From NCBI RefSeq assembly GCF_000194625.1, contig NC_015320.1, forward strand, positions 248,001 to 312,000: a stretch of 64,000 bases of DNA. Direction: 5' to 3'. A program made the position numbers and the translations under genes. Below, piece by piece: positions 7,264-16,732 of this stretch (position 1 is the first letter of the stretch; the number at the start of each line of letters is the position of its first letter). The notes under the pieces were generated by a model, which searched no databases, was not told where the DNA came from, and worked only from the letters and a program-made list of their open reading frames with translations. Origin of the DNA: Archaeoglobus veneficus SNP6 (GTDB lineage: Archaea > Halobacteriota > Archaeoglobi > Archaeoglobales > Archaeoglobaceae).

Positions 7264-7312
7264 TTTTTTTGCTAATTTAATAAAACATAATTAAGTTAAT
7301 GAATTTAGTTTG

Positions 7313-7330
7313 GAAAATCATGAGATTTTC
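7313..7330. promoter_or_regulatory. 7-4-7 perfect palindrome upstream of the ATP synthase operon
   Basis: GAAAATC-ATGA-GATTTTC lies about 50 bp upstream of the TATA-like element of the ATP synthase operon. It could be an operator or a hairpin following the MoaD-like gene. In AT-rich intergenic DNA one such palindrome can occur by chance. Confidence 0.35.
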
Positions 7331-7379
7331 AAAAATAAATCCGTACGTGGTGCATATATTGGAAAAGCAAAAATGGCAA

Positions 7380-7391
7380 ACTTTAAATATT
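7380..7391 (+). promoter_or_regulatory. TATA-box/BRE-like promoter of the ATP synthase operon
   Basis: ACTTTAAATATT, preceded by purines (GGCAA) suitable for TFB binding, lies about 25 bp before a probable transcription start near 7412. The first gene starts at 7445, preceded by AAGGGTGAC as ribosome-binding site. Confidence 0.6.
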
Positions 7392-7444
7392 TGCTTGACC
7401 CGGCTAAACAGGAGATTATAAAAAAAGGTACAAGGGTGACTATC

Positions 7445-7774
7445 ATGGAGAAAACAGAGATTCTTGAAAGAATTAAGGAAGCTGAGTTGAAAGTCGAACA
7501 GGACATTGCCGCCGCTCAAGAAGAAGCAAAGCAAATTATTGCAAATGCAAAAGAGGAAGCGAGGAAGATTATTGAAGAAGCGGAACAGGAAGCCGAGAAA
7601 ATAAGGGCTGAAGTCCTTGAGAAGGCCAAGGCTCTTATTGAAGAGGAGAAGAACAAGATAAAGGACCAGTGGACACAGGAGATCTCTTCTATTGAGAAGA
7701 GAGGTAAGGACAACGCCTGGAATGCGGCTGAGTTTTTGTACAACGAATTTATAGGGATGGTGGAGCATGCTTAA
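7445..7774 (+). CDS. atpH: A-type ATP synthase subunit H (peripheral stalk)
   Basis: A 109-residue, almost wholly helical coiled-coil protein rich in Glu/Lys/Ala, the first gene of the A1Ao ATP synthase operon. Subunit H pairs with subunit E to form the outer stalks that hold the catalytic head against the membrane part. The start at 7445 is chosen because AAGGGTGAC lies just upstream and the family starts close to the coiled coil; an in-frame upstream extension to 7310 lacks a ribosome-binding site and spans the promoter. The stop overlaps the next gene by 8 bp. Confidence 0.88.
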   Translation: MEKTEILERIKEAELKVEQDIAAAQEEAKQIIANAKEEARKIIEEAEQEAEKIRAEVLEKAKALIEEEKNKIKDQWTQEISSIEKRGKDNAWNAAEFLYNEFIGMVEHA

Positions 7775-9839
7775 GCCGGTAAAGATGGTTAAGGTCTCGG
7801 TAGTGGGGCCCAAGGAGTACCTTGCCACTACCTCCGAGACCCTGCACAGAGTACATGCGGTGCACATCGAAGACCCGGCTGAAGAGGAGTACTTCAAGAT
7901 TGGAGAACCGCTCGAGAAAGCCTCAACTGTTTCAAGGTACCTTGTTCTGCTGAGGAGCTACATCTCTCACCTTAAAATCGATCCCGACAAGGTGATACCG
8001 AGGAGGAAGTATAGAGCAAGCGAGATTGAGGCAGAAATTCAGAACAAGCTCGACTACTTCCAGCAGGAAATTGGAGAGAGAATTGAAAAACTGAGACAGC
8101 TTGCAGACAGGGTAAAAGCTCTGGATGAAGAATTGCTTGCCATCGAACCCCTTAAGGCCCTCGGAATCCCACCGAGGCTGCTCAAGGGCTACAAGAGCAT
8201 CAGGAGTTTTGTTGGCATAGTGAAAGAGGATCCGACGGAGAAGATAAGAGAGGTTACGTCGGACTTCGAGGTCATAATAAAACCTTATGGCAAAGAGTTC
8301 ATTGTGGCTGTTTTTGTCAGGACTGAGCAGGGAGATGATGTTTTCAGGGTTTTGCAGGAGTGCGGTTACAAGGAGGTTTCCGTTCCGGACATCGAGGACT
8401 ACGAGGCGAGAATAAAGGAAATTGAAGCTGAGAAGGCATCTATTGCAGATGAGAAGAAGAGAATTGAAGCGGAACTCGAGGAGATAAAGCGAAGAGAAGT
8501 CGAATACATGCTTGCTATGGAAGAATATCTGAGCATAGAACTCGACAAAGCGGAGCTACCTCTGAGAGCTCTTGTCTCAAAGTACGCATTCATGATCGTC
8601 GGCTACGTGCCAGCAAAGCAGTATGAGAAAGTAAAGGCGGAGATTGAATCGGCTACAAACGGTAGGGTCATAGTTGAACTTGTAGAGGGTGAAGAGGAGG
8701 AGAGCGAACCACCGACACTCTTGGCAAATCCGGCTTACGTGAAGGACTTCGAGGTACTCTCGACGACATATGCAATACCTAAGTACAACGAAATTGACCC
8801 GACTGCGATAATGGCCGTGTTCTTCCCACTGTTCTTCGGAATGATGCTCGGTGACGTCGGTTATGGTGGGCTGATAGCTCTGTTGGCCCTCTTCCTCAAG
8901 ACTAAGTTCAAGACGGAGGGCTGGCAGAAGCTGCTCAATGTTGCCCTTTACTCGGGTATCGTATCTATCTTCTTCGGCTTCATATACGGAGAGATATTTG
9001 GACCACTGTACGTCCCGGGCGTCGGCTACAGTGCACACTTCCTCGGCGGCTGGGCAGAGTCCGTACACTTCCACCCAATATTCGACAGAGTTGAAGAGAT
9101 GGGTGTCAAAGTTCTGCTGTTCCTTGTGCTTGTAGTAGGTATGTTCAAGATCCTGTGGGGCTTCGCAATGGGCTTTTACAATGTATACAACGAACATGGT
9201 TTCGTAGAGGCTGTTCTTGAAAAGGGCTGCTGGTTCCTCGGTGTTCTTGCTCTCGCCCTTGCAATTCTCGGCTTCTGTTACAACCTCGGTGTTTTCGCTG
9301 ATCTCTATGAGTTCACGTTGCACCACTACGGTGTTGGCATTGGCTTGCCCGAACACCCGCCTGAGGACATTCCACCGCTACCCATACCCGGCCTCGTTGA
9401 CGGCTGGCAGGCAGGTGTGAACATTTACTACATGGCAGCACTGCCACTCGTTATAGTGTGGTTCATACTCTTCCTGAAGGCAGAGATTCCAAAGATGGGT
9501 CCCTTCGGCATCATAATGGGCGTCGAACTGCTTACCTGGTTCGGTCAGATAATCAGCTACGCTCGATTGCTCGCTATCGGTCTCTCATCGGTTTACATTG
9601 CGTTTGTCATCAACTACCTTGGTCTCAAGATAGCGCTACCACCGGGAATGGCGCTACTGCCACTTGCACTGGTCATAATGCTGCTGGGACACTTCGTCAA
9701 CCTGATACTCGGTATCCTTGACCCAGGATTGCAGTCATTACGTCTGCACTACGTAGAGTTCTTCACCAAGTTCTTCGAGGGTGGTGGAAGGCTGTTCAAG
9801 CCGTTTGGTAGGAGGAAGAGGTTTATAGAGGATGAGTAA
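7767..9839 (+). CDS. atpI: A-type ATP synthase membrane subunit I (a-subunit)
   Basis: A 690-residue subunit that forms the ion half-channels beside the proteolipid ring. Residues 1-330 are cytoplasmic with two long coiled coils (about 80-135 and 210-260) that contact the peripheral stalks. From about residue 345 there are seven to eight membrane helices. The conserved essential Arg is in [13 protein letters not shown] (about residue 598). The length is normal for the archaeal subunit. It is followed after 14 bp by the first proteolipid gene with a strong AGGAGGTG site. Confidence 0.95.
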
Positions 9840-9840
9840 A

Positions 9841-10099
9841 GGAGGTGGAAAAAATGGCTGAAGCGTTGATAAGTGATGAGGCATTTATAAAGGGCTGTGC
9901 GGCAGTAGGAGCTGGACTGGCTGTCGGCCTGGCAGGCATTGGTGCTGGAGCCGGTGAAAGTGGCATTGGAGCAGCAGCAGTAGGTGCGATTGCAGAGGAC
10001 AGGGGATTCCTTGGTCTCGGTCTGCTGTTTACAGTTATCCCAGAGACCATCGTTATCTTCGGACTGGTCATCTCGTTCATACTGATGTTCGCCTACTGA
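9841..10099 (+). repeat. Perfect 259-bp direct repeat, copy 1 (contains proteolipid gene 1)
   Basis: Identical base for base to 10341-10599. It begins at the ribosome-binding site GGAGGTGG and ends exactly at the TGA stop; flanking bases differ on both sides. The two copies are offset by exactly 500 bp. Confidence 0.95.
9854..10099 (+). CDS. atpK: A-type ATP synthase proteolipid subunit K (c-ring), copy 1
   Basis: An 81-residue two-helix hairpin that multimerises into the rotor ring. The ion-carrying carboxylate is Glu64 in IPETIVIFGL in helix 2; helix 1 is Gly/Ala-rich (about residues 15-45). The ATG at 9854 is chosen because GGAGGTGG sits 5-12 bp upstream; the GTG at 9845 lies inside that site. 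A second gene with identical DNA is at 10354. Whether the ring carries H+ or Na+ cannot be decided by eye; the classical helix-1 Gln of some Na+ rings is not evident. Confidence 0.95.
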   Translation: MAEALISDEAFIKGCAAVGAGLAVGLAGIGAGAGESGIGAAAVGAIAEDRGFLGLGLLFTVIPETIVIFGLVISFILMFAY

Positions 10100-10103
10100 C
10101 CAT

Positions 10104-10286
10104 ATGACGCTGAGCGAGGCTGTGTTCAAGTGGGTCGAAAAACACGTGGTGACTGAGAAAAACATAGAGCGCTTCATAAAGTACTACTGGCTGGTTTCGA
10201 CGTTCAGAGTCGCGCTGGGCTTTGCAATAATGTTCCTGATACTGGTTGGAGGCTATAAGTTCGAAGATCTCCTGCCAAAGTGGTGA
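10104..10286 (+). CDS. Unknown 60-residue membrane protein between the two proteolipid genes
   Basis: Sixty residues: an amphipathic, charged N-terminal half (residues 1-28) and one membrane helix (about 33-52, VALGFAIMFLILVGGYKF). It starts 4 bp after the first atpK, has no strong ribosome-binding site of its own and is probably co-translated. It does not match any standard A-type ATPase subunit known to me. Its place between two identical proteolipid genes suggests a role in rotor-ring assembly or regulation, but this is inference from position only. Confidence 0.6.
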   Translation: MTLSEAVFKWVEKHVVTEKNIERFIKYYWLVSTFRVALGFAIMFLILVGGYKFEDLLPKW

Positions 10287-10293
10287 GGGAAAA

Positions 10294-10318
10294 ATATAGT
10301 TTAAAAATTTATTTAAAT
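10294..10318 (+). promoter_or_regulatory. AT-rich possible internal promoter before the second proteolipid gene
   Basis: The stretch between the 60-residue ORF and the second atpK contains TTTAAAAATTTATTTAAA, resembling an archaeal TATA box about 45 bp before the second atpK start. It could allow extra proteolipid or downstream transcripts. Seen only as base composition and position. Confidence 0.35.
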
Positions 10319-10340
10319 TTTATTTGATGTGGTGAATTTG

Positions 10341-10599
10341 GGAGGTGGAAAAAATGGCTGAAGCGTTGATAAGTGATGAGGCATTTATAAAGGGCTGTGC
10401 GGCAGTAGGAGCTGGACTGGCTGTCGGCCTGGCAGGCATTGGTGCTGGAGCCGGTGAAAGTGGCATTGGAGCAGCAGCAGTAGGTGCGATTGCAGAGGAC
10501 AGGGGATTCCTTGGTCTCGGTCTGCTGTTTACAGTTATCCCAGAGACCATCGTTATCTTCGGACTGGTCATCTCGTTCATACTGATGTTCGCCTACTGA
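10341..10599 (+). repeat. Perfect 259-bp direct repeat, copy 2 (contains proteolipid gene 2)
   Basis: Identical to 9841-10099, including the ribosome-binding site and the third codon positions of the whole gene. Confidence 0.95.
10354..10599 (+). CDS. atpK: A-type ATP synthase proteolipid subunit K (c-ring), copy 2
   Basis: Same 81-residue product as the gene at 9854, with no base differences. It is followed by atpE after 21 bp. Identity at synonymous sites means either a very recent duplication or continuing gene conversion. A possible promoter in front of this copy could raise the proteolipid dose relative to the other subunits, which would make sense for a subunit needed in about ten copies per enzyme. 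Confidence 0.95.
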   Translation: MAEALISDEAFIKGCAAVGAGLAVGLAGIGAGAGESGIGAAAVGAIAEDRGFLGLGLLFTVIPETIVIFGLVISFILMFAY

Positions 10600-10620: not shown

Positions 10621-11187
10621 ATGGCGCTGGAAGTGATAATCGAGGAAATACGCAAAAAGGGAGATGAGGAAGTCCGCAGGATCAAGGGAGAGGCAGAGAG
10701 CGAAGCGGAGAAGATTATAGCAGAGGCTAAAGAGAAGGCAGAGGAAATACTGAAGAAAGCAAAGGAAGAGGCTGAGAAGGAAGCAGAGAGGTTGAGAAGG
10801 CAGGAAATTTCTGGAGTTAACCTCGAGATGAAGAGGCTCCTTCTTAATAAAAGGAAGGAGGCCCTCGAGACAGTTTACGAGATTGTACAGGACAGGATAA
10901 AGCAGATGGACACTGAAACCAAGAAGAAGCTTCTCGAAAACCTGATCAAGAAGAACGCTGTTGGAGAAATGGTTGTTTACTCTAACAAGGACGACGAGCC
11001 GGTCGTTAGAGAAGTCATCTCTGATATGGCTGACCTCAAGTACGGCGGTAACATCGATTGTCTTGGCGGTGTAATTTTGGAAAGCCCCGATGGGGAGGTG
11101 AGGATTAACCTTACCTTCGATGAATTGCTAAAGCAACTCTACGAGCAGAAAATGAGCGAAGTTTCGAAGATCCTTTTCGGGGAGTGA
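10621..11187 (+). CDS. atpE: A-type ATP synthase subunit E (peripheral stalk)
   Basis: A 188-residue protein with a long N-terminal coiled coil (about residues 5-75, KAEEILKKAKEEAEKEAE pattern) and a globular C-terminal domain that binds the catalytic head. With subunit H it forms the peripheral stalks. Length and domain order are normal. It is separated from the second atpK by 21 bp and from atpC by 6 bp, within one operon. Confidence 0.94.
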   Translation: MALEVIIEEIRKKGDEEVRRIKGEAESEAEKIIAEAKEKAEEILKKAKEEAEKEAERLRRQEISGVNLEMKRLLLNKRKEALETVYEIVQDRIKQMDTETKKKLLENLIKKNAVGEMVVYSNKDDEPVVREVISDMADLKYGGNIDCLGGVILESPDGEVRINLTFDELLKQLYEQKMSEVSKILFGE

Positions 11188-11193
11188 GGGCAA

Positions 11194-12207
11194 ATGTTGA
11201 TCGGTAAGAATGCACAGTGGGCATATATAGTTGCAAGGGTTCGAGTGATGAAGAGAAGCCTCATTCCACAGGAGGAGTTCAGAAAGCTCCTCAACATGGA
11301 CTTCAACGAAATAGTAAGGTACCTCGAGGAGACGGAGTACAAGAAGGAAATCGACGAACTCTCATACAAGTACACTGGCCCGAGGCTGCTTGACTATGCG
11401 CTCTCACTCCACCTTTTCAGGAAGTACAAGAGGATACTCGACGTATCCTTTGGAACAGCCAAGGAACTAATACTCGAGTATCTCAAGAGATGGGATGTCT
11501 GGAACATAATTAACATCCTTAGAGGCAAGCTTGCTGGCGTGTCTCCTGAGGAGATCGAGGAGACTCTCGTGCCGGTTGGCGAATTCAGCTACGATTTCTA
11601 CAAATCTCTTGTGCTCAAAGAGGTCGATGAAATTGTAAAGGCCTTCGACAGAACTCCGTACTATGAAGTGCTGTCCAAAGTCGGACAGGTTCCGCTGAGC
11701 GAGATCGAGGACGAGCTTTACAAGATATACTACTCTAAAATCGTCGGCATGAGGCCCGCGGAGCAGGCATTGAAGCTCTTCGTTGACTTCATCCGCAGGG
11801 AAATTGATTTAAAGAATATAAAAACAATACTTAGACTTAAGATGGACGATGTGCCAACTGAGAATATACTTACGAGAATAATACCCGGTGGATATCAGCT
11901 CAACGTTGATGAAGCAAGGAAACTTGCAGCGATGCCACTCGACGAACTCGTTAAGTCCCTCGAGGGCTACTGGTTCTGGAAGGACATTGAAATTGAAGAC
12001 AGCTTCTCAAGGGTCGAAATCAAGCTTGACAGCATGTGGATGAAGGAAGTGGCGAGCAGAGCGAACCACTACCCGCTCTCGATTCTGCCAGTGCTGCACT
12101 ACATGTGCCTCAAGAAGCTCGAAGCGGACAACCTCAGGGTCATAGGATGGGGCAAGTGGGAAGGTCTGCCCAATGAGGCGATAGAAGAACAGCTGGTGAT
12201 GGTATGA
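11194..12207 (+). CDS. atpC: A-type ATP synthase subunit C (rotor adaptor, V-type d homologue)
   Basis: A 337-residue helical, water-soluble protein of the V-ATPase d/C family, which sits on the proteolipid ring and connects it to the central shaft. It consists of three similar helical repeats; length matches the family. The last codons overlap atpF by 4 bp (ATGA), so the two are translationally coupled. Confidence 0.94.
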   Translation: MLIGKNAQWAYIVARVRVMKRSLIPQEEFRKLLNMDFNEIVRYLEETEYKKEIDELSYKYTGPRLLDYALSLHLFRKYKRILDVSFGTAKELILEYLKRWDVWNIINILRGKLAGVSPEEIEETLVPVGEFSYDFYKSLVLKEVDEIVKAFDRTPYYEVLSKVGQVPLSEIEDELYKIYYSKIVGMRPAEQALKLFVDFIRREIDLKNIKTILRLKMDDVPTENILTRIIPGGYQLNVDEARKLAAMPLDELVKSLEGYWFWKDIEIEDSFSRVEIKLDSMWMKEVASRANHYPLSILPVLHYMCLKKLEADNLRVIGWGKWEGLPNEAIEEQLVMV

Positions 12208-12503
12208 GCCGCATAACTGTGGTTGGGGATCCGGATTTTAATCTCGGTTTCAGGCTCGTCGGTATAAGGGACATCATAGACGTGGATGACGAGGAAAAGC
12301 TGCCTGAAATAGTCGAGAGCCTGCTCGGAAGGGAAGGCGTTGTAGTTATAAAGTATGATTTTTATAAGAAGCTTCCCATACAGGTAAAGATGAAGGTGGA
12401 GGAAAGCCTCGAGCCGACCTTTGTTAAGGTTGGTGGAGAGGCTGGTGTGGAAGAACTGAGAGATAAGATAAGAAGGGCGATAGGTGTTGACCTATGGAAA
12501 TGA
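12204..12503 (+). CDS. atpF: A-type ATP synthase subunit F (central shaft)
   Basis: A 99-residue Rossmann-like small protein that binds subunit D in the central rotor shaft and may regulate ATP hydrolysis. The N-terminal '[18 protein letters not shown]' strand-turn region is typical for the family. It overlaps atpC at the start and atpA at the end. Confidence 0.93.
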
Positions 12504-14239
12504 AGACGGTAGGTAAGATTGGTGAGGTTTACAGAGTTTCAGGACCCCTCGTTGTTGCGGAGGGAATCAAGCCGAGGATGTACGATGTCTGCTACGTCGG
12601 TGAAGAAGGTCTGATGGGTGAGGTAGTCGGTCTGGTAGGAGAAAAAACGCTGATACAGGTTTATGAGGACACTTCTGGTATCAAGCCCGGTGACAGGGTT
12701 GAGAACACAGGAATGCCGCTGAGCGTCGAGCTTGGTCCGGGACTTATAAAGTCGTTCTACGACGGTGTCCAGAGGCCTCTGCCGGCTCTCAAGGAGGCGA
12801 GTGGAGACTTCATCAGCAGAGGAATCCACGTCCCCGGCCTGGACAGGAGCAAGAAGTGGGACTTCAAGCCCATTGTTAAGAAGGGTGACAAGGTTAAGGG
12901 TGGAGACATCATAGGTACGGTTCAGGAGAGCGAACTCGTAGAACACAAGATTCTCGTTCCGCCGAAGATCGGCGAGCGCACGATCACTGAGATATACGAC
13001 GGAAGCTTTACAGTTGAGGATACCATTGCAGTTCTCGATGATGGGACGGAGCTCAAGCTCTACCACAAGTGGCCGGTTAGAGAGGCAAGACCGTACATCG
13101 AGAAGCTTCCACCGGTAATCCCGCTTATCACTGGTCAGAGGATTCTCGACACAATGTTCCCGGTTGCCAAGGGGGGCACTGCTGCAATTCCGGGCCCATT
13201 CGGAAGTGGTAAGACTGTCACACAGCACCAGCTTGCAAAGTGGAGTGACGCGCACATCGTCGTTTACATCGGATGCGGTGAGCGTGGCAATGAGATGACA
13301 GAGGTTCTTGAGGAGTTCCCCGAGCTCATTGACCCGAGGAGCGGTAAGCCGCTCATGGAAAGAACTGTTCTGATTGCGAACACATCCAACATGCCGGTAG
13401 CTGCAAGAGAAGCTTCGGTTTACACCGGAATTACAATTGCAGAGTACTTCAGAGACATGGGTTACGACGTGAGTATCATGGCCGACTCGACGTCAAGGTG
13501 GGCTGAGGCGATGAGAGAGATCTCTGGAAGACTTGAGGAGATGCCCGGTGAAGAAGGTTATCCGGCATATCTCGCTTCGAGAATTGCTGAGTTCTACGAG
13601 AGGGCTGGAAGAGTTAAGACCCTTTGCGGAGAAGTCGGCAGTGTTAGTGTCGTAGGAGCAGTTTCGCCACCAGGTGGTGACTTCTCCGAGCCTGTTACAC
13701 AGAACACGCTGCGTATCGTTAAGGTCTTCTGGGCCCTCGATGCAAAGCTCGCAGCAAGAAGACACTTCCCGGCTATCAACTGGCTGCAGAGCTACAGCCT
13801 GTACGTTGACACTCTGAAGGAGTGGTACGAGCAGAACGTCGCTCCTGACTGGGGTGAACTGAGAAGGTGGGCAATGGAGGTCCTGCAGGAAGAGGCAAAC
13901 CTCCAGGAGATTGTGCAGCTCGTTGGAAGCGACGCACTGCCAGAATCGCAGAGGTTGCTGCTTGAGGTTGCGAGGCTCATCAGAGAGGTCTTCCTCCAGC
14001 AGTACGCATACCACCCGGTTGACTCATACTGTTCACCGCAGAAGCAGTACGACCTGCTCAAGGCCATCAAGGAGCTCAACGACATGTTCTTCAAGGCCCT
14101 CGAGCAGGGCAAGCTCATCGACGAGATCATCAACGTGCCGGGTAAGGAAGAGTTCGCAAGGGCGAAGTTCGAGGAGGACTACAAGACAGCGCTGCAGAAC
14201 GCTATGGATATGATAAGAAAGGCCCTGTTTGGAGAGTGA
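12494..14239 (+). CDS. atpA: A-type ATP synthase catalytic subunit A
   Basis: A 581-residue catalytic subunit that binds and hydrolyses or makes ATP in the A3B3 head. The P-loop PGPFGSGKT is at about residues 234-242, with the catalytic Glu in GCGERGNEM (about 262). The long non-homologous insertion before the P-loop that distinguishes A/V-type A subunits from F-type beta is present (about 110-200). Two starts are possible, 12494 and 12500; 12494 is better spaced from TAGGTG at 12481. The gene overlaps atpF. Confidence 0.96.
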
Positions 14240-14244
14240 TAGGG

Positions 14245-15660
14245 ATGAAGGAGTATAAGACAATAAATAAGGTTGCCGGTCCCCTTATTTTTGTTGAGAA
14301 GACCGAGCCCGTGGGTTATGGAGAACTTGTTACGATAACTCTGCCAGATGGAACTACGAAGAGAGGACAGGTTCTTGACACGTCCAAGGACGTCGTAGTT
14401 GTACAGGTTTTCGAGGGTACAAGAGGTATCGACACCTCTTCGACTGTCCGTTTCACGGGAGACATCGTCAGACTTGCGTGCTCGAAGGACATGCTTGGAA
14501 GAGTTCTCTCTGGAAGTGGTGACCCAATCGATGGCGGGCCGAAGATCGTGCCTGAGGAGAGAAGAGAAATCATCGGTGCAGCTATCAACCCGTATGCAAG
14601 GCAGTATCCGAGAGAGTTCATTCAGACTGGTATTTCAGCCATCGACGGAATGAACACCCTCGTTAGAGGTCAGAAGCTGCCTATCTTCAGTGGTAGCGGT
14701 CTGCCACACAACGATATAGCTCTGCAGGTTGCGAGGCAGGCGAAGGTTCGTGGAGAGGGTGAAGAGTTCGCTGTTATATTCGCTGCTATGGGTATCACAA
14801 ACGAAGAAGCATACCAGTTCATGAAGGACTTCGAGAGAACTGGAGCTCTCGAGAGAGCGGTCGTTTTCCTGAACCTTGCAGACGACCCGGCTATCGAGAG
14901 ACTACTCACACCTCGTATGGCTCTAACCGCTGCTGAATTCCTCGCCTACGAGTATGACTTGCACGTCCTCGTTATCCTGACTGACATGACCAACTACTGT
15001 GAAGCGCTGCGTGAGATGTCGGCTGCAAGAGAAGAAGTTCCCGGAAGGCGTGGTTATCCGGGTTACATGTACACAGACCTCGCAACGATCTACGAGAGAG
15101 CTGGCCGTATCAGAGGCAGGAAGGGTACGATTACGCAGATGCCCATCCTCACGATGCCTGGAGACGACATCACTCACCCGATTCCCGACCTGACCGGATA
15201 TATTACCGAGGGTCAGATAGTTCTGAGCAGAGAACTGCACGCTAAGGGTATCTATCCGCCAATCGACGTCCTTCCATCGCTCAGCAGGCTGATGAAGGAA
15301 GGTATCGGAGAGGGCATGACGAGGGACGACCACGTCCAGTGGAACGACCAGATGTACGCTGCATACGCAGAGGGTGTCGACCTCAGAGGTCTCGTCGCAA
15401 TCGTCGGTGAGGAAGCTCTGTCTGAGAGGGACCGCCGCTACCTCCGCTTTGCAGACGAATTCGAGCGCAGATTCGTGCAGCAGGGCAGGTACGAGGACAG
15501 AGACATCGAGTACACTCTCGACCTCGGATGGGAGCTGCTGTCACTCCTGCCAGAGTCCGAACTGATGAAGATCGAGAGGAAGTACATCGAGAAGTACCAC
15601 CCGGCGTACAGGAAGAAGGGCGCCGCGGCTGAAGAAGAGGCCGCAGAGGCGGCGGCCTAA
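14245..15660 (+). CDS. atpB: A-type ATP synthase regulatory subunit B
   Basis: A 471-residue non-catalytic nucleotide-binding subunit alternating with A in the head. In place of a normal P-loop it has [11 protein letters not shown] (about residues 150-160), as expected for the B subunit. The ATG at 14245 follows GTGATAGGG; an in-frame GTG at 14236 overlaps the atpA stop and is less likely. The C-terminus is an Ala/Glu-rich tail of about 20 residues. It lies between atpA and atpD as in other euryarchaea. Confidence 0.96.
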
Positions 15661-15694: not shown

Positions 15695-16369
15695 ATGGCA
15701 GAGATCAAACCAACTCGAATGGAGCTTATAAAGCTCAAGAGAAGGATAAAGATGGCTACCAGAGGCCACGCACTGCTGAAAATGAAAAGAGACGGTCTTA
15801 TCATGGAATTCAGAGAGATACTCGAGGAAGCGAAGGATGTGATCGGAGGAATGGTTGACAAATTTAACAAGGCCAACGAGAGAATCACCCTCGCAAAGGC
15901 TGTTGATGGTGTGCTTGCAGTCCGCTCCGTTGCTATTTCATGTCAGTGTGAACCCGAGTTCACGATAAAGAAGAAGAACATAATGGGTGTAGTCGTTCCA
16001 GTTGTGAAGCGTGAGAAGATAAGGAGAAAGGTCAGCGAGAGAGAGTACGGTGTCATCGCAACTACAGCCAGAATTGACGAGGCAGTCGCAGCCTACGAGG
16101 AGCTTGTTGATGCAATCCTCGAGGTTGCAGAGATCGAGACGACGGTTAAGAGACTTATCGACGAAATTGAGAGGACGAAGAGGAGGGTTAACGCCCTCGA
16201 GTACCGCGTGATACCCACCATGAAAGAAGCTGCCAAGTACATAACCTTCAAGCTTGAAGAGCAGGACAGAGAGAACATCATCAGGCTCAAGAAGATCAAG
16301 TCCAAGATGGCAGAGAAAGAAGCGGCAAAGAAAGCTCAGGAGGAAGCTGCGGCGGCCGCTGCAGCATAA
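15695..16369 (+). CDS. atpD: A-type ATP synthase subunit D (central shaft)
   Basis: A 224-residue protein that is two long antiparallel helices (about residues 5-75 and 120-205) with a short domain between them, forming the rotating axle inside the head. It is preceded by AGAGAGGTGATAAGGG as ribosome-binding region. It ends in an Ala-rich low-complexity tail. It is the last gene of the operon; T-rich DNA follows (16370-16387), a likely archaeal terminator. Confidence 0.94.
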   Translation: MAEIKPTRMELIKLKRRIKMATRGHALLKMKRDGLIMEFREILEEAKDVIGGMVDKFNKANERITLAKAVDGVLAVRSVAISCQCEPEFTIKKKNIMGVVVPVVKREKIRRKVSEREYGVIATTARIDEAVAAYEELVDAILEVAEIETTVKRLIDEIERTKRRVNALEYRVIPTMKEAAKYITFKLEEQDRENIIRLKKIKSKMAEKEAAKKAQEEAAAAAAA

Positions 16370-16387
16370 TCTTTTGCTTTTATTTTT
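16370..16387 (+). terminator. T-rich possible terminator after the ATP synthase operon
   Basis: The stretch CTTTTGCTTTTATTTTT directly follows the atpD stop. Archaeal termination often occurs at such T-runs. The next gene starts immediately after it, so read-through is also possible. Confidence 0.4.
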
Positions 16388-16732
16388 ATGGACATCGAGG
16401 AGTTAAGGCGAATTCTTGTAAAGTTTCGTGACGAGAGAGACTGGAAGAAGTTTCACAATCCAAAAGACCTTACTATCTCTATTTGTATCGAATCTGCTGA
16501 GCTCCTCCAGCACTTTCAGTGGATTGACTGCAATGACGTCTGGAAGGTTGCAAAAGAGAGACGGGAGAAAATCGAGGGCGAGATGGCTGACATTCTGATA
16601 TATCTCATCTATCTCGCTGATGTTCTTGAAATCGACCTTGGAGAAGCTGTTGTTGAGAAGGTAAGGAAAAACGAGGAACGCTATCCGGTGGATAAGGTTA
16701 AAGGCAAGGCTAAGAAGTACACAGAGCTTTAA
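16388..16732 (+). CDS. MazG-like nucleotide pyrophosphohydrolase (dCTP pyrophosphatase-like)
   Basis: A 114-residue all-alpha NTP pyrophosphohydrolase of the MazG/DCTPP1 family, which cleaves (d)NTPs to the monophosphate and PPi and removes non-canonical nucleotides. The metal-binding pattern is seen in CIESAELLQHFQW (about residues 36-48) and EGEMADILIYL (about 67-77). Length fits single-domain members. It starts 18 bp after atpD and may be read from the same transcript or leaderless. Confidence 0.9.
   Translation: MDIEELRRILVKFRDERDWKKFHNPKDLTISICIESAELLQHFQWIDCNDVWKVAKERREKIEGEMADILIYLIYLADVLEIDLGEAVVEKVRKNEERYPVDKVKGKAKKYTEL

Follow-up and report, generated by a model that had tools for sequence, protein, structure and literature searches.

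The A-type ATP synthase operon of the archaeon Archaeoglobus veneficus SNP6 contains a small open reading frame, ORF X, which is best explained as a whole as a divergent and relocated member of the AhaG family that probably acts at the Ao rotor. Its setting inside a proteolipid tandem is a new place for this family. The window, a stretch of 64,000 nucleotides, belongs to a genome assembled as one contig of 1,901,943 bases. Its operon follows the order H-I-K1-X-K2-E-C-F-A-B-D with all genes on the + strand, and the features are listed below with the evidence for each.

7310 to 7774, + strand: subunit H-like gene, an open frame with a TTG start (weak Pfam matches only; operon place); the true start is probably further in
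7767 to 9839, + strand: subunit I, the stator membrane subunit (PF01496, 1e-30)
9841 to 10099, + strand: direct repeat copy 1, 259 nt, ribosome-binding site and K coding sequence (sequence comparison)
9854 to 10099, + strand: proteolipid subunit K, copy 1 (K1), ATG start, frame open from the GTG at 9845 (PF00137)
10104 to 10286, + strand: ORF X, 60 aa, AhaG-like single-pass membrane protein (profile searches, alignment, dN/dS, AlphaFold2 model)
10341 to 10599, + strand: direct repeat copy 2, 100% identical (sequence comparison)
10354 to 10599, + strand: proteolipid subunit K, copy 2 (K2), identical to copy 1 (PF00137)
10621 to 11187, + strand: subunit E (PF01991, 6e-35)
11194 to 12207, + strand: subunit C (named by operon order)
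12204 to 12503, + strand: subunit F (operon order)
12494 to 14239, + strand: subunit A (operon order)
14236 to 15660, + strand: subunit B (operon order)
15695 to 16369, + strand: subunit D (PF01813 at G000:C1:263722-264303, G000 being the genome of the window)
16370 to 16387, no strand: junction of D and the MazG-like gene, the X site of relatives such as G011 and G022, empty here (locus comparison)
16388 to 16732, + strand: MazG-like gene, after D here and after D-X in some relatives (locus comparison)

ORF X begins with an ATG 4 nt past the K1 stop codon (10099), with K2 downstream, and encodes a protein of 60 aa and 7.2 kDa. An earlier note on this DNA had proposed a reading frame of this position between duplicated proteolipid genes, and the coordinates, the homologues and the dN/dS ratios all agree with it. 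In the 28/28 aligned Archaeoglobales X proteins the residues M1, N20, Y27, W29, S32, R35, and G39 are invariant. The dN/dS ratio is 0.01-0.28 in 14/16 pairs, those with a positive finite value; of the remaining two pairs, L024/L025 has no amino-acid change and L020/L021 has a saturated dS. ORF X is a real gene under purifying selection. Its position between duplicated genes could in principle mark it as a relic of the K duplication, as the earlier note had also considered, or as a spacer without protein function, but no similarity to K is detectable in protein or DNA, the selection on its sequence is clear from the ratios above, and homologues exist where K is single, which makes this reading extremely improbable. 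The adjoining segment between X and K2 (10287-10340) is AT-rich; a promoter or terminator of archaeal type may lie there and give K2 separate expression.

The protein has a single hydrophobic stretch that peaks at residues 30-48 (Kyte-Doolittle 2.33), and its gene lies inside the A1Ao operon in 33/33 carriers, in keeping with the description of X as a membrane protein that belongs with this operon. An AlphaFold2 model predicts helices at residues 3-15 and 18-48 (mean pLDDT 71, pTM 0.39), consistent with a short helix at the surface and a single membrane helix after it. The earlier note had described an amphipathic half plus one membrane helix; the membrane helix is borne out by hydropathy and by the model, and the first part is weakly supported as amphipathic, as 2.6% of shuffles reach the observed moment over residues 3-28 of the window protein and 6.8-36% do so for the same residues in three relatives.

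Homologues of X were identified in 33/57 genomes of the order Archaeoglobales, one per genome (E<=0.01). The short frame that the earlier note had suggested seeking in other Archaeoglobales operons is present between K genes in 17 genomes, and far from being absent in the relatives, X occurs exactly once in each of the 8 genomes held in 1-2 contigs. Two places are used. X lies between two identical or near-identical K genes in 17/33 carriers, 11 with both K genes complete on one contig and 6 with the contig ending in a K copy; it follows D directly in the other 16/33, where its start codon often overlaps the D stop. Across the 33 carriers, X often overlaps the preceding stop codon or starts within a few nucleotides of it. 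The genomes in 1-2 contigs include both arrangements, with X between K genes in G000, G001, and G015, and after D in G014, G022, G024, G025, and G026. G056 was placed after D from the D coordinates in locus L033 together with the X coordinates. Among the 16 post-D carriers, a single K match is present in 15 and no K match was found in G033. At two Geoglobus-type loci a second, similar 60-residue ORF directly follows X (L023:1660-1842 and L034:4664-4846).

In G011, G022, G023, G031, and G033, X sits between D and a MazG-like gene, whereas in the genome of the window the MazG-like gene comes immediately after D; the window therefore displays the post-D place without X. The remaining 24/57 genomes of the order have no X match, and in 12 of these a contig ends in or at K. 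Short-read assemblies can be expected to break or collapse at identical K repeats, which lie 420-507 nt apart, and most of the 24 absences are therefore probably assembly artefacts. Another six X-less genomes lack a detected K (G012, G018, G032, G043, G044, G052). The last six have a continuous I-K-E with a single K (G005, G007, G008, G035, G040, G051), and these may have truly lost X by recombination between K repeats.

The relation of X to AhaG was examined with two sequence profiles. Profile A1, built from the Archaeoglobales X proteins, gave matches at E<=0.05 in 100 of the 390 genomes searched across the phylum, with 75 hits outside the order. Among the matches listed with D coordinates, 29/33 outside hits lie 35-65 nt downstream of D on the same strand, and the four that do not are all weak (E 0.0127-0.044). 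A further 11 outside loci were fetched, and D is directly upstream in 11/11; this positional check covers 33 + 11 of the 75 outside hits. Profile A2, consisting of 20 AhaG-like sequences from outside the order, was run on 57 genomes and returned X as the best whole-genome hit in 30/33 carriers, the exceptions being G009, where X ranks second, and G011 and G014, where it is missed. In the genome of the window, X is the sole A2 hit at E<=1 (E 1.3e-4). A comparison of the two profiles with hhalign gave a probability of 97.6 and an E-value of 2.7e-12. Since the A2 sequences were collected with A1, the A2 test depends in part on the A1 search, and the independent support for the relation is the genomic place after D. 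A separate A2 hit in G032 (C48, E 0.035), located outside any ATP synthase context, was dismissed as chance.

The post-D place is presumably also that of AhaG in Methanosarcinaceae-like genomes: in Methanosarcina, the gene after D (ahaD) is presumably ahaG, in an operon order ending D-G. The label AhaG for the matched genes combines this gene order with the name used in the available portions of PMC4350412. Taken together, the profiles and the genomic place make X very probably a relative of AhaG. A possible objection would be convergence, X being a small membrane protein of other origin that inserted itself between K1 and K2, as weak profile scores come easily for short hydrophobic proteins and the A1 E-values to methanogen genes range from 2e-7 to about 1e-2. 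However, the methanogen hits fall on one genomic place, and the post-D genes of closer relatives (Geoglobus, Ferroglobus, G014) match X at 34-51%, so that we regard convergence as highly unlikely.

The earlier note had held that X is not a known A1Ao subunit. This proved mostly wrong, because the profiles and the post-D place link X to AhaG, although the standing of AhaG as a subunit is itself questioned in the consulted parts of PMC4350412. That source describes an ahaA-ahaG operon with an AhaG of 6.3 kDa that escaped detection by mass spectrometry, and it questions whether AhaG takes part in the ATPase. It also relates that E. coli expressing the ahaA-ahaG operon of M. mazei gave purified material in which A, B, C, D, and F were the only subunits. 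For a membrane protein, absence from purified A1 is expected. According to the accessible text of PMC3750248, AhaG is missing in Thermoplasmatales and is therefore not a universal need. Neither X nor its AhaG-like relatives could be assigned to a family by searches of Pfam, NCBIfam, and PDB sequences, and the lack of a Pfam or NCBIfam assignment makes the X family easy to miss. Literature searches, including the portions of PMC4350412, PMC3750248, and PMC2838876 that could be consulted, gave no description of the Archaeoglobus X gene, and a search by locus tags led to unrelated papers only.

The K genes that flank X evolve in concert. K1 and K2 of the window are 100% identical over 259 nt, including the ribosome-binding site, at a distance of 500 nt. 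Over the last 213 nt, the two copies within a genome are identical in 9/11 genomes and differ at 5 and 2 positions in the other two, whereas K genes compared in register between genomes have at least 7 differences; between-genome comparisons with unequal protein ends, which are out of register and give values near 150, were left out. This combination of identity or near-identity within a genome and difference between genomes is the basis for concerted evolution. The residue after the conserved Glu in helix 1 of K (9854-10099 in the window; loci L056 and L058-L069) is Ser in 14/14 K-X-K genomes tested, Gln in 13/13 post-D genomes read, and Lys in a Methanosarcina-like K. Altered ion binding is a possible consequence of the Gln-to-Ser change. 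A switch of coupling ion was also considered and was not upheld, given that the alignment to the F-type Na+ ligand is uncertain by one residue and that Lys occupies the position in the Methanosarcina-like K.

The K-X-K arrangement has a history of its own. The K-X-K genomes do not form one clade in a tree of rpoB from 26 genomes; 4 changes are needed, at least 2 of them forced by well-supported branches, and a single K-X-K clade is rejected when 25 of the 26 genomes are put to an AU test (p 0.00036). In the trees of I, K, E, and C the K-X-K genomes form one clade with support 100, the post-D rows of the K tree comprising 10 from the order and G160 from another order. The K-X-K genomes are not united in the trees of A, B, and D (2, 3, and 2 changes, respectively), and only in B is this forced by well-supported branches. 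The X protein tree requires 2 changes, the protein being short and the tree poorly resolved on the K-X-K side. Genome G013 groups by rpoB with the genus of G009, G011, and G014; its E+C genes group with K-X-K genomes, and their grouping with its own genus is rejected (p 2.8e-54). As the rpoB and ATP synthase genes of G013 share one contig (C25, locus L098), an apparent transfer of its membrane/stalk genes is suggested. The simplest reading of these trees would be that K-X-K arose once and that species later exchanged the membrane/stalk block. The alternative is that two old operon types were kept or lost by lineage.

A mechanism can be proposed on this basis. Ancestrally, X most likely followed the gene for subunit D directly. 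A duplication of K that included its ribosome-binding site would have taken place in one Archaeoglobales lineage, where X is now found between the two copies. The protein of ~7 kDa is predicted to begin with a short helix, which probably faces the cytoplasm, and to contain one transmembrane helix, with a conserved basic-aromatic belt (N20, R23, Y27, W29, S32, R35, G39) that would lie at the membrane surface. Translation of X may be coupled to that of a rotor protein (D or K1), and the presumed binding partner of X is the Ao rotor, where it would either promote formation and docking of the K ring or remain as a minor ring-associated subunit. X adjoins a rotor gene (D or K) in every carrier, and we consider it reasonably likely that X has a role at the rotor as a putative single-pass Ao rotor accessory.

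The two outcomes named in this mechanism are sharper forms of the same explanation. In the first, X is a transient factor for assembly of the K ring, with an action like that of Vma21 or AtpI, and is absent from the finished enzyme. This form is a serious possibility, though one we hold at somewhat below even chances. The placement of X inside a proteolipid gene pair in 17 genomes speaks for it, as do the patchy occurrence of the gene family across archaea (the A1 search and the consulted part of PMC3750248) and the failure to detect AhaG in PMC4350412, within its available portions; on the other hand, the probable ancestral place follows D rather than K, and Pfam and NCBIfam offer no sequence link to Vma21 or AtpI. 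In the second form, X is a stable minor Ao subunit that sits where the ring meets D/C, plugs the ring, or lies at the edge between ring and stator, comparable to e/f of the V-type Vo. Such a subunit is consistent with the single gene copy in each finished genome, the placement beside rotor genes, strong purifying selection, and the interfacial aromatic-basic belt, whereas no solved chain matches A1, A2 matches solved chains at chance level only, and AhaG was not seen by mass spectrometry (PMC4350412, consulted in part); we entertain this form tentatively, as about a one-in-three proposition. A more far-reaching idea is that H-I-K-X-K-E-C constitutes a distinct, horizontally exchanged Ao module, with its concertedly evolving K pair, its Gln-to-Ser change in helix 1, and X as a partner dedicated to the ring, whose assembly or composition it would determine; we consider this unlikely.

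These results bear on AhaG, an orphan encoded in the ATP synthase operon of Methanosarcina; its place in the enzyme has been questioned (PMC4350412, in the parts consulted). The finding that the same family in Archaeoglobales is under strong purifying selection and has moved amid proteolipid genes argues for membership of the membrane rotor, and the Archaeoglobales X offers a second, heat-loving system for settling the role of AhaG. In addition, blocks of ATP synthase membrane/stalk genes have apparently been exchanged across species, with a different apparent history for the catalytic genes.

Among known systems, the Vma21- and Vma9-type proteins of V-ATPases and AtpI of F-type operons are small and tied to the assembly or structure of the membrane sector of rotary ATPases. 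They resemble X as small membrane proteins of such systems by analogy only, and differ from it in that Pfam, NCBIfam, and PDB searches revealed no sequence match. The closer comparison is with AhaG of the M. mazei aha operon, which is similar to X in size (6.2-6.6 kDa computed for two Methanosarcina-like relatives), in its one hydrophobic helix, in its membership of an A1Ao operon, in the profile match both ways, and in the shared core N..R-[IL]-L-x-x-x-W-x-I-S...G. The two differ in that X lies between two K genes and AhaG after D, that the N-terminal helix is longer in X, and that R35 is invariant in Archaeoglobales X whereas the methanogen proteins mostly have Met at this position.
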